A stretch of DNA of 64,000 nucleotides from Desulfobacteraceae bacterium (lineage in GTDB: Bacteria > Desulfobacterota > DSM-4660 > Desulfatiglandales > Desulfatiglandaceae): positions 62,001 to 126,000 of the forward strand of contig JAUWMR010000004.1 in the NCBI GenBank assembly GCA_030613055.1. The letters run 5' to 3'. Both the position numbers and the translations under genes were made by a program. Position 1 is the first letter of the stretch; each line of letters opens with the position of its first letter. The notes beneath the pieces are model-generated. The model was not told where the DNA came from. It worked only from the letters and a program-made list of their open reading frames with translations, and made no database searches. Positions 5,419-56,731 of this stretch are shown here, piece by piece.

Positions 5419-5708
5419 TGCTTTGCCCCTGGAAGGGGTTAAAGCGCTATAAAGAAAAAAGTGCCTAAAATGCCTAAAGTTTAAAGTGCCTAAAGTTGTG
5501 GTACGCCTTCGGCGTGCTATTTAAAAAACAACGCCTCAGGGGTTTGCCCCCTTTTGTCGGCTAATTGGTATAATAGAGTAATTTTTTTTAAAAAATAGCA
5601 GAATTCATTAACTTTAGTCCCGCCGTGGCGGGATTTGGCACTTTAGATCACTTTAGGCACTTGTGTCCCGCTATGCGGGGAAGGACATGGTTTGAAAAAC
5701 GAAATAAA
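5419..5708 (+). repeat. P1 repeat, copy B
   Basis: A full P1 element: left arm with AAGTGCCTAAA and GCCTAAAG motifs near 5459-5495, central TACGCCTTCGGCGTG hairpin, GCAGAATTCATTAAC, a right arm of TTTAGGCAC motifs to about 5660, then GGACATGG and GAAATAAAG. The right arm carries an extra palindrome TCCCGCCGTGGCGGGA (5618-5633), where copy E reads GGCATTTTAGGCA. A second palindrome, TCCCGCTATGCGGGGA, is at 5666-5681. Confidence 0.88.
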
Positions 5709-10413: not shown

Positions 10414-10785
10414 AATCCACGCCCGGAGGACGTGGCTTTGATTCACCCCTGAAAGAGACTAAAGCGCTATGAAGAAAAAAGTGCCTAATCCCGCCTAGGC
10501 GGGACTAAAGTTTAAAGTGCCTAAAGTTGTGGTACGCCTTCGGCGTGCTATTTATAAAACAAAGACTCAGGAGTTTGCCCCCTTTTGCCGGCTAATTGGT
10601 GTCATAGAGTAATTTATTTAAAGTAGCAGAATTCATTAACTTTAGGCATTTTAGGCACTTTAGATCACTTTAGGCACTTGTGTCCCGCCTTGGCGGGATT
10701 AGGCACTCTTTGGGGTTTATCCAGGCAAAGCCGATAGATTCTGACCCTCGCATAGCGGGGCACGACATGGTTTTCAAAGATGCAA
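10414..10785 (+). repeat. P1 repeat, copy C, between rnfA and rnfB
   Basis: A complete P1 element in the rnfA-rnfB gap, on the operon's sense strand. The left arm carries the palindrome TCCCGCCTAGGCGGGA (10489-10504) inserted within the TGCCTAA..CTAAAG sequence of the other copies. The right side has TCCCGCCTTGGCGGGA (10683-10698) and CTCGCATAGCGGGG. As RNA the arms could fold into a very long hairpin, which might reduce rnfB expression relative to rnfA or protect mRNA ends. Confidence 0.88.
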
Positions 10786-36567: not shown

Positions 36568-36968
36568 TCCATGGAAGAGGCTAAAGCACCATAAAGAAAA
36601 AAGTGCCTAAAATGCCTAAAGTTTAAAGTGCCTAAAGTTGTGGTACGCCTTCGGCGTGCTATTTTAAAAAACAACGCCTCAGGGGTTTGCCCCCTCTTGC
36701 TGGTTAATTGGACGTCTCGGAAATTGTATCCCGCCAAGGCGGGACTGGAATTATAGTAGTTCTTTGAGGCTTGGTCTTTTTGCCTCCAGCCTCTAACCTT
36801 AAGCCTCTAACATTATTTCAACCCATTATTCCAATATTCCTGTATTCCAATCCCGCTAAAGACGGGATCTTCGACTTTCCAATTGGGGCGGAGCCCCTAA
36901 GTTCTCTAAAATAGCAGAATACATTAACTTTAGGCATTTTAGGCACTTTAGATCACTTTAGGCACTTG
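36568..36968 (+). repeat. P1 repeat, copy D, between ribE and ribD and overlapping the ribD stop
   Basis: P1 element carrying about 190 bp of extra sequence between centre and right arm, itself holding two palindromes, TCCCGCCAAGGCGGGA (36729-36744) and TCCCGCTAAAGACGGGA (36851-36867). The right arm (TTTAGGCA repeats, 36931-36967) runs into ribD: read on minus, the last ribD codons K-C-L-K-stop are the repeat's AAGTGCCTAAAGTGA. It is on the strand opposite to the rib genes. Confidence 0.88.
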
Positions 36969-52445: not shown

Positions 52446-52520
52446 GGGCGGATAGCTCAGTGGGAGAGCGTCGGCCTTACAAGCCGAGGGTCGCAGGTTC
52501 AAATCCTGTTCCGCCCACCA
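52446..52520 (+). tRNA. tRNA-Val (anticodon TAC)
   Basis: 75 nt, acceptor GGGCGGA / TCCGCCC, anticodon arm TCGGC-CTTACAA-GCCGA, T arm GCAGGTTCAAATCCTGT, and encoded ACCA. First of the tRNA run behind lon. Confidence 0.96.
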
Positions 52521-52594: not shown

Positions 52595-52705
52595 GGGGAC
52601 GTAGTTCAGTTTTGGTTAGAACGTCCCGTCAGACATGACGGGAAGGTCGCCAGGTGAACTCCTCTCAAGCACCCGCTTTTCATAAGCGGGAAAAACATAA
52701 TTTAC
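52595..52705 (+). pseudogene. tRNA-Asp-like tandem unit 1 (degenerate)
   Basis: Its first 29 bases (GGGGACG, TAGTTCAG, TTTTGGTTAGAACG) are identical to the genuine tRNA-Asp at 52929. The anticodon arm is replaced by the 20-base hairpin TCCCGTCAGACATGACGGGA, the T arm is unrecognisable and the 3' acceptor strand and CCA are missing. It ends with the hairpin CCCGCTTTTCATAAGCGGG followed by AAAAA. It cannot form a working tRNA-Asp. Confidence 0.85.
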
Positions 52706-52817
52706 GGGGACGTAGTTCAGTTTTGGTTAGAACGTCCCGCATCTCAATGCGGGAAGGTCACAGAAACGAGTCCTTTCGCAAAAAGTGGTATTTACAGAGT
52801 TATAAATTTACATACAC
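52706..52817 (+). pseudogene. tRNA-Asp-like tandem unit 2 (degenerate)
   Basis: The same 29-base 5' half, then the hairpin TCCCGCATCTCAATGCGGGA in place of the anticodon arm. The remainder (AAGGTCACAGAAACGAG onward) diverges from units 1 and 3 and lacks the terminal hairpin. No 3' acceptor strand. Confidence 0.82.
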
Positions 52818-52928
52818 GGGGACGTAGTTCAGTTTTGGTTAGAACGTCCCGCATCTCAATGCGGGAAGGTCGCCAAGGGAACTCCTCTCAAGCATCCGCT
52901 TTTCATAAGCGGGAAAAACATAATTTAC
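52818..52928 (+). pseudogene. tRNA-Asp-like tandem unit 3 (degenerate)
   Basis: Same 5' half, anticodon-arm hairpin identical to unit 2, and 3' part almost identical to unit 1 (CTCCTCTCAAGCA, hairpin TCCGCTTTTCATAAGCGGG, AAAAACATAATTTAC). Period to the neighbours is 111-112 bp. Confidence 0.83.
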
Positions 52929-53007
52929 GGGGACGTAGTTCAGTTTTGGTTAGAACGCCGGCCTGTCACGCCGGAGGTCGCGAGTTCGAGTCTCGTCGTC
53001 CCCGCCA
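52929..53007 (+). tRNA. tRNA-Asp (anticodon GTC)
   Basis: 79 nt, acceptor GGGGACG / CGTCCCC, D arm with a slightly long loop, anticodon arm CCGGC-CTGTCAC-GCCGG, T arm GCGAGTTCGAGTCTCGT, discriminator G and encoded CCA. It is the only complete member of the array and has its own terminator. Confidence 0.95.
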
Positions 53008-53018
53008 TAAGAATCCTG

Positions 53019-53053
53019 AGGCTTGTCGTTTTACATAAGTGACAGGCCTTTTT
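53019..53053 (+). terminator. Intrinsic terminator after tRNA-Asp
   Basis: AGGCTTGTC / GACAGGCCT 9-bp stem (one wobble), followed by TTTTT. It ends only 6 bp before the GIY-YIG start codon. Confidence 0.85.
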
Positions 53054-53058
53054 CATTC

Positions 53059-53316
53059 ATGACTTATTACGTGTACATAATCGAAAGCCTCAAAGACGGA
53101 AGCTATTACGTTGGATCCACTCAGGATCTTGATTCTCGCCTTGAGCGTCACAACCAGGGCCGATCACAATACACGAAACCGAAGAGGCCTTGGAAATTGG
53201 TATACTCTGAGGAACACCCCGATCGATCGAGTGCAGTAAATCGAGAAAATCAAATTAAAAAACACAAAAGCAAAGAATACATTGAATCCCTTGTTGAATG
53301 TTCCCGTCACATTTGA
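53059..53316 (+). CDS. Small GIY-YIG endonuclease-family protein
   Basis: An 85-aa single-domain GIY-YIG protein of the YhbQ/UPF0213 type. The signature is YYVYIIESLKDGSYYVGSTQDLDSRLERHNQGRS, followed by TKPKRPWKLVYSEE and REnQIKKHKSKEYIESL. Catalytic Arg and Glu candidates are present. No ribosome site precedes the ATG, since a terminator occupies the space; a TTG at 53023 would extend it by 12 residues. The last codons (C-S-R-H-I-stop) are read from a TCCCGTCACATTTGACGGGA hairpin that belongs to a tRNA-Asp-like remnant. Family members include stand-alone proteins of unknown role; homing-type activity is possible here because of the flanking tRNA copies. Confidence 0.85.
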   Translation: MTYYVYIIESLKDGSYYVGSTQDLDSRLERHNQGRSQYTKPKRPWKLVYSEEHPDRSSAVNRENQIKKHKSKEYIESLVECSRHI

Positions 53317-53394
53317 CGGGAAAGGTCGCCCCGCTTACACCGCGCAGCGGGACCTTCAGCGAGTTCCCCGCCTGTGGCGGGATCGTCCCCGCCA
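53300..53394 (+). pseudogene. tRNA-Asp-like remnant (3' part) with inserted hairpins
   Basis: After the anticodon-type hairpin at 53302-53321 comes AAAGGTCGCC, a second palindrome (CCCGCTTACACCGCGCAGCGGG), GCGAGTT, a third palindrome (CCCCGCCTGTGGCGGGA) where the T loop should be, then TCGTCCCC-G-CCA. The 3' acceptor strand, discriminator and CCA are those of tRNA-Asp. The 5' half is replaced by the end of the GIY-YIG gene. Confidence 0.78.
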
Positions 53395-53402
53395 GCAAAC
53401 AC

Positions 53403-53437
53403 AAGGGTTTCAGCATTTTGTTGAAACCCTTTTTTTA
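53403..53437 (+). terminator. Intrinsic terminator after the tRNA-Asp-like remnant
   Basis: AAGGGTTTCA / TGAAACCCTT perfect 10-bp stem, 9-base loop, then a run of seven T. Confidence 0.92.
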
Positions 53438-53599
53438 TGTCTTGTTAATTTTTCCAACCCTATTTCCAACCTTTTCCTCTGATAAACCATGCAGCCATTT
53501 TAACCTTTACATACATTAAATTAAATTCATCTTTTTCACGTATCTTGATCAAGGCTCAGACACCTCATGTGGTCGCACCGATAGAGGAATCCTATGCAA

Positions 53600-56393: not shown

Positions 56394-56731
56394 AAGCATC
56401 CCCGCCCAAAGGACGTGGCCTTGATTTGCCCTTGGAAGGGGTTAAAGCGCTATGAAAAAAAGTGCCTAAAATGCCTAAAGTTTGAAGTGCCTAAAGTTGT
56501 GGTACGCCTTCGGCGTGCTATTCATAAAACAACGCCTCAAGGGTTTGCCCCCCTTTGTCGGCTAATTGGTGTCATAGAGTAATTTTTTTTTAAAATAGCA
56601 GAATTCATTAACTTTAGGCATTTTAGGCACTTTAGATCACTTTAGGCACTTGTCCCGCCTTGGCGGTATTAAAGGCAGAGTCGATTGGCTCTGACCATGC
56701 CCAAAGTACATGGTTTTAAAATCGAAATAAC
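56394..56731 (+). repeat. P1 repeat, copy E
   Basis: Full element: AAGGACGTGGCC, GGTTAAAGCGCTATG, left arm AAGTGCCTAAAATGCC, hairpin TACGCCTTCGGCGTG, AGCAGAATTCATTAAC, uninterrupted right arm TTTAGGCATTTTAGGCAC, a TCCCGCCTTGGCGG palindrome, then ACATGGTTTTAAAATCG. The best copy for defining the uninvaded arms. Confidence 0.88.

Follow-up and report, generated by a model that had tools for sequence, protein, structure and literature searches.

A tRNA-Asp repeat array that probably marks the left edge of a small GIY-YIG cassette within a bacterial tRNA-Asp gene

Integrative elements that insert in a tRNA gene bring tRNA sequence with them and so preserve a working tRNA, and group I introns may carry a homing endonuclease. 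SegB, a nuclease of the GIY-YIG type, was reportedly the subject of an earlier study (Brok-Volchanskaya, 2008). In the portion of PMC13096335 used here, SegB of phages T4 and T6 is a free-standing GIY-YIG homing endonuclease of tRNA gene clusters, its breaks fall within phage tRNA genes at the motif RAWTSGAAC, and its nuclease activity is required for tandem amplification of the tRNA locus. Group I introns occur in tRNA anticodon loops (PMC3984707), and REP/REPIN sequences with their RAYT enzymes tie short palindromes to the gene of a mobility-type enzyme, a tyrosine transposase (PMC2817692, PMC3116915). We analyzed a 64,000-nucleotide stretch of DNA from a Desulfobacteraceae bacterium (the window) that holds a tandem array of tRNA-Asp-like units. 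Among known systems, SegB comes closest. We propose that the array is probably the left border of a small, homing-type GIY-YIG cassette inserted in the host tRNA-Asp gene.

As in the SegB system, a GIY-YIG gene lies beside tRNAs; SegB breaks tRNA genes, and its locus is amplified in tandem by recombination. SegB, however, is a phage gene, whereas the gene in the window is chromosomal and encodes a predicted nuclease of 85 aa, and the same portion of PMC13096335 contains neither split host tRNA halves around an intact copy nor palindromes in place of tRNA arms. Compared with integrative elements, the present insertion breaks the gene at its anticodon arm and encloses a whole tRNA, and there is no integrase ORF between the halves, where the GIY-YIG gene is the only ORF of at least 80 aa; an integrase-type tRNA element was rejected because the element has no integrase gene. 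A break near the anticodon is shared with group I introns, but here an intact tRNA copy takes the place of splicing, and a search of the window for an intron core or other RNA family gave no Rfam match except tRNA; a group I intron was rejected because the insert contains no intron RNA core. The likeness to REP/RAYT extends to one GIY-YIG clade bracketed by inverted REP-like repeats (see below), but the gene associated with the palindromes encodes a GIY-YIG protein and not a tyrosine (Y1) transposase, and the palindromes lie inside split tRNA genes.

The tRNA-Asp 5' part, an identical 28 nt (29 nt with the following G), opens each of the three left units and the intact tRNA-Asp of Table 1, at successive spacings of 111, 112 and 111; a search of both strands found no further copy in the window. 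As the first-pass annotation had described, the three 111-112 bp units have the anticodon arm exactly swapped for a 20-nt TCCCG..CGGGA palindrome and have lost the T arm and 3' acceptor strand, and units 1 and 3 close with a further hairpin and an A-run. The replaced arm measures 17 nt, and units 1 and 3 share 92% identity over 140 nt. AGGTC stands directly 3' of the palindrome in every unit, followed by divergent sequence. ARAGORN and Rfam call a tRNA in only one of the four copies, the last. The resident tRNA-Val gene upstream is the conserved anchor of the locus and is the same neighbour in most relatives.

Table 1. Features of the tRNA-Asp locus, in window coordinates
Feature	Position	Strand	Description
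tRNA-Val (TAC)	52446..52520	+	resident gene upstream of the insertion; ARAGORN, Rfam
Left unit 1	52595..52705	+	tRNA-Asp 5' part, hairpin 52624-52643, AGGTCGC, tail with second hairpin
Left unit 2	52706..52817	+	same tRNA-Asp 5' part, hairpin 52735-52754, different tail
Left unit 3	52818..52928	+	same tRNA-Asp 5' part, hairpin 52847-52866, unit-1-like tail
Intact tRNA-Asp (GTC)	52929..53007	+	ARAGORN, Rfam
Terminator-like hairpin	53018..53054	+	between tRNA-Asp and nuclease gene; read from sequence; also in other cassettes
GIY-YIG nuclease ORF, 85 aa	53059..53316	+	PF01541 match, catalytic-motif residues kept
Right remnant	53301..53394	+	hairpin 53302-53321, AGGTCGC, two further hairpins, tRNA-Asp 3' end
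Host flank	53395..53480	+	terminator 53398-53436 (inverted repeat I2) and sequence once downstream of plain tRNA-Asp

The first-pass annotation spanned the GIY-YIG ORF and the right-hand half, but described neither. The ORF matched PF01541 with 74.4 bits (cut-off 22.6; E = 9e-21), and the motif residues Y, Y-x-G, Arg and Glu are present and nearly invariant across 27 aligned relatives. Two solved UPF0213-like structures, 1zg2 (BH0048) and 1ywl (EF2693), matched the protein over almost its full length (E = 1e-11); these small GIY-YIG proteins have the same domain and size, and we found no role tied to tRNA splitting described for the UPF0213 family. The stop codon falls within the right-hand hairpin of the remnant, and in several other genomes the end of the right-hand ORF likewise lies within the border hairpin. 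This hairpin is of the same type as those of the left units, and the remnant ends in TCGTCCCCGCCA (53383-53394), which equals the 3' end of tRNA-Asp, the host 3' half. Its downstream flank equals that of plain tRNA-Asp genes in relatives; it matches the plain flank of L017 at z ~6, and it matches the right flank of L011 at z ~18.

An empty and an occupied allele at one site, as expected of a homing element, were found in L021 and L009, the single clean pair within one genus (by the labels of the search tool). The plain locus L021 has tRNA-Val, a 9-nt spacer, tRNA-Asp and a terminator. Its upstream spacer is shared with L009, with one base different (CCACCTTAGCAC / CCACCTTAGTAC), and in L009 precedes the left unit, while the L021 terminator and the sequence after it recur behind the last right half of L009 (76 identities, 8 mismatches, 5 gaps; z ~28-33). 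The flank after the intact inner tRNA-Asp of L009 differs from the plain flank of L021. Across all pairs tested, plain flanks reached z>4 with right-half flanks in 26% and with intact-tRNA flanks in 2%, and the intact-tRNA flanks all match one another, partly because they include the start of the GIY-YIG gene. As the flanks of the plain gene recur outside the left unit and the right remnant, the host tRNA-Asp gene was split: the left units and right remnant are its two halves, broken at the anticodon arm. To the left lie the 5' half and the upstream flank, to the right the 3' half and the terminator. The occupied allele bears hairpins at both borders, yet holds an intact tRNA-Asp inside, and the insert consists of this tRNA, the terminator-like hairpin and the GIY-YIG gene, so that an intact tRNA gene remains. 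We infer that the intact tRNA-Asp in the window is likewise part of the cassette, because its downstream flank matches those of other cassette tRNAs and not those of plain tRNA-Asp genes. At both borders, a TCCCG..CGGGA palindrome takes the place of the anticodon arm.

When the locus was used as query against 61 genomes of the same family and order, a recurring design emerged. tRNA-Val comes first, then between one and four left units, each made up of a 5' half, a hairpin, AGGTC and a tail; these are followed by the intact tRNA-Asp, the GIY-YIG gene, and finally a hairpin with the tRNA-Asp 3' half. In most cassettes the GIY-YIG gene starts 49-67 nt past tRNA-Asp. The plain tRNA-Val/tRNA-Asp pair, which the first-pass annotation had named as part of the counter-evidence to be sought in close relatives, was indeed all that some of them had, but others carry the same array. 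The 26 tRNA-Asp loci with complete context, whose class counts are not prevalences because they were picked by hairpin pattern and similarity to the window, comprised five with left unit, right half and GIY-YIG, five with right half and GIY-YIG, six left only, four right only, two with left unit and GIY-YIG, one with GIY-YIG only and three with none; the window falls in the left-and-GIY-YIG class because extra hairpins interrupt its right half. A strict pattern, GTTAGAACGTCCCG-N-CGGGAAGGTC, matched 53 stretches of the genome collection from several phyla, which by record titles include Desulfobacterales, other Deltaproteobacteria, Ignavibacteria, Neomarinimicrobiota, Nitrospirota, Zixibacteria, Calditrichota, Bacteroidetes, Methylomirabilota, Deferribacteres and Falkowbacteria; the arrangement occurs in mirror forms, left and right. 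Nearly all of these records are metagenome-assembled, but CP070787, CP070742, CP070673 and CP053447 are labelled chromosomes, which argues against an assembly artefact. In a phylum-wide sample, 4 of 297 genomes matched the strict pattern. A phage vehicle was rejected, as the core pattern had no match in viral contigs and the best phage GIY-YIG relative (46.7% identity) had no annotated tRNA within 1.5 kb; on plasmids, all GIY-YIG relatives were distant (<60% identity).

The design recurs at tRNA-Asp in several phyla and in variant form at tRNA-Asn, Val, Leu, Pro and His. Among 63 single-domain GIY-YIG hits in 41 genomes, nine had a tRNA ending at most 100 nt upstream on the same strand, against a chance expectation that we estimate, from some 12 tRNAs per Mb, at well under one. 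Beside tRNA-Asn, Val, Leu and Pro, the GIY-YIG gene has a tRNA 5' part on its left, a 3' part on its right, or both; tRNA-His cases are L055 and L068. L171 again shows exact replacement of the anticodon arm, here in tRNA-Pro, and in tRNA-Asn remnants hairpins stand for parts of the D, anticodon and T arms.

Individual loci vary this arrangement. In the same genome, outside the window, L131 (G000:C18:77700-81400) has tRNA-Asn with two tandem GIY-YIG ORFs and bears left units with TCCCG hairpins as well as right remnants. L116 and L128 mirror the order at tRNA-Asn, with a hairpin-bearing 5' half, a GIY-YIG gene and a complete tRNA-Asn, and in L128 the 5' half and GIY-YIG gene are doubled in tandem. 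In L167 and L172 the GIY-YIG gene comes after tRNA-Val and tRNA-Leu, and all that follows it of a second tRNA is the 3' end, starting at the T loop, with another hairpin type ahead of it (CTTGTGCGCCTTAGGCGCA-TTCGA). On the reverse strand of L010, at about 1390-1485, a tRNA-Val copy has TCCCG hairpins for both anticodon and T arms, and L053 has, upstream of tRNA-Asp, a tRNA-Val copy that likewise bears TCCCG hairpins where arms should be.

The GIY-YIG protein tree, built on only 70 columns and with many deeper forks unresolved, placed 24 rows from several phyla in a tRNA-Asp clade (support 98/85). The tRNA-Asn genes (94/95) and the Val/Pro/Leu genes (100/100) each formed a group, the REP-flanked genes formed a clade apart (100/99), and some tRNA-Asp rows lay outside the main tRNA-Asp clade. 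For the most part, GIY-YIG subclades match the target tRNA. The members of the REP-flanked clade (L120, L121, L123, L130, L133, L139, L140, L144 in the window's own genome (G000:C19), L146 and L157) are in most cases bracketed by inverted REP-like palindromes, like a REP element with its own enzyme: GTCATTCCCGCG..CGGGAATCCAG lies some 20-50 nt ahead of the start, and in several of them CTGGATTCC..GGAATGAC lies at the stop codon or a few bases from it.

Palindromes of the TCCCG..CGGGA type number 11 in the window against 0.25 expected after shuffling, four of them within the 700-bp stretch of this locus. In 65 distinct hairpins the stem extends 2.4 pairs on average beyond TCCCG/CGGGA (null 0.61) and covaries, with several pair types per position, which indicates that the palindrome is kept as a palindrome, at the DNA or RNA level. 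In L014, the loops of the copies are reverse-complementary to each other. The window also holds dispersed short repeats of a 9-base unit (ACTTTAGGC / AAAGTGCCT) at 5458-5497, 10639-10679, 36600-36639, 36927-36967 and 56611-56651.

The presence of such palindromes dispersed in the genome, together with the hairpins in the D and T arms of tRNA-Asn remnants and the doubly replaced tRNA-Val copy of L010, would also fit an independent REP-like palindrome that inserts in tRNA stem-loops, the GIY-YIG cassette being a later guest of the damaged copies. We consider this unlikely. Palindromes flank the gene on both sides at 5 of 63 GIY-YIG loci but at none of 1336 control positions, so palindromes and GIY-YIG genes are not independent; left and right hairpins are also more alike within a locus than between loci (mean distance 0.25 versus 0.50, from few independent loci, with duplicate loci included and one truncated left unit counted as right).

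We give still less credence to the view that the units are ordinary dead copies produced by tandem duplication of tRNA-Asp, with no mobile element involved. Their regular spacing, the near identity of units 1 and 3 and the existence of left-only loci agree with it, but several phyla share the exact replacement by a hairpin, a split gene is what the right half and the flanks of the empty site show, and in many loci a nuclease gene lies between the tRNA and the right half. The first-pass suggestion of dead copies came close, in that the units are tRNA-Asp 5' halves lacking the parts that function requires. Its other proposal, recent duplication or constraint on the 5' half, was correct in part. 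In 21 of 31 units (two of the 31 being tRNA-Val copies) the 5' half is identical to that of the resident tRNA in its own genome, whereas in comparisons with other loci the figure is 4%; this is consistent with halves that derive from the host and that recombination keeps alike.

That the units are kept as functional small RNAs or decoys for tRNA processing, as also suggested at first, seems the least credible reading. In its favour, folding is stronger than in shuffled sequence for units 1 and 3 (z = -5.0 and -4.3), the hairpin stem covaries and the resident tRNA and the 5' half remain identical, but unit 2 folds unremarkably (z = -1.5), host origin and recombination already predict the 5' identity, plain relatives lack the units, the array is an insertion border by the empty/occupied pair, and the post-hairpin tails of 34 left units, folded against simple base shuffles, had no consistent pairing and no general signal (median z -0.01). 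Only the hairpin is conserved over these homologous units, so a dedicated small RNA is not supported. Pairing of GGGACGT with ACGTCCC, raised in the first-pass annotation, is possible, but in units 1 and 3 the fold predicted to have the lowest energy uses the CCC of ACGTCCC for the hairpin.

In the cassette model that we favour, the nuclease would cut tRNA genes at or near an arm, and recombination would copy the cassette in, or multiply the border units in tandem. The palindrome would be left at the break or carried to it, and could protect the tRNA half from cutting or keep it from working as a tRNA gene. In this model, the three left units would be amplified scars with no dedicated RNA function, and deletion between repeated halves would explain left-only and right-only loci, which may be the expected leftovers of recombination between such halves. 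Sequence comparison establishes the architecture; the nuclease activity, the mobility of the cassette and the origin of the hairpins are inferences. Several points weigh against the model: the nuclease ought to attack the intact inner tRNA-Asp as well, the model offers no ready mechanism for the exact replacement of an arm by a palindrome, and not every relative carries the pattern (4 of 297 genomes in the phylum-wide sample). The left units may also have arisen by another route, such as plain tandem duplication, given the six of 26 loci that are left-only, with no right half or GIY-YIG gene.

GTTCSAWTY, the reverse complement of the SegB motif as given in the cited portion of PMC13096335, reads like a T-loop consensus, and several right remnants have a second hairpin at the place of the T loop; by analogy, the two may be linked. 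As a guess, a nuclease acting on hairpin DNA, that is, on tRNA arms and REP palindromes, would fit both contexts in which these genes occur. We raise only tentatively, as a doubtful extension, that small GIY-YIG nucleases constitute a system for spreading palindromes of the TCCCG..CGGGA type, with one clade REP-bracketed and others aimed at particular tRNA genes, in which they leave palindromes where stem-loops had been.

We found no description of this element in the literature searched, which mostly excluded subscription papers and preprints. Its parts are of known kinds; what appears new is chromosomal GIY-YIG cassettes that split tRNA genes and enclose an intact copy, tRNA arms being replaced by hairpins. 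This reading would give tRNA-like repeat arrays a concrete origin, as the edges of a cassette whose nuclease disrupts an essential tRNA gene and which itself supplies a working copy, and tRNA halves and small GIY-YIG ORFs beside tRNAs would best be annotated together. It would carry the SegB idea, that GIY-YIG enzymes act on tRNA genes, beyond phages to the chromosomes of bacteria in several phyla, and it points to clades of nucleases that have each specialised on a tRNA. A further suggestion is a candidate enzyme for the spread of short palindromes in genomes: if true, palindrome-spreading GIY-YIG proteins would be a RAYT-independent mover of short palindromes that rewrites tRNA loci across phyla.
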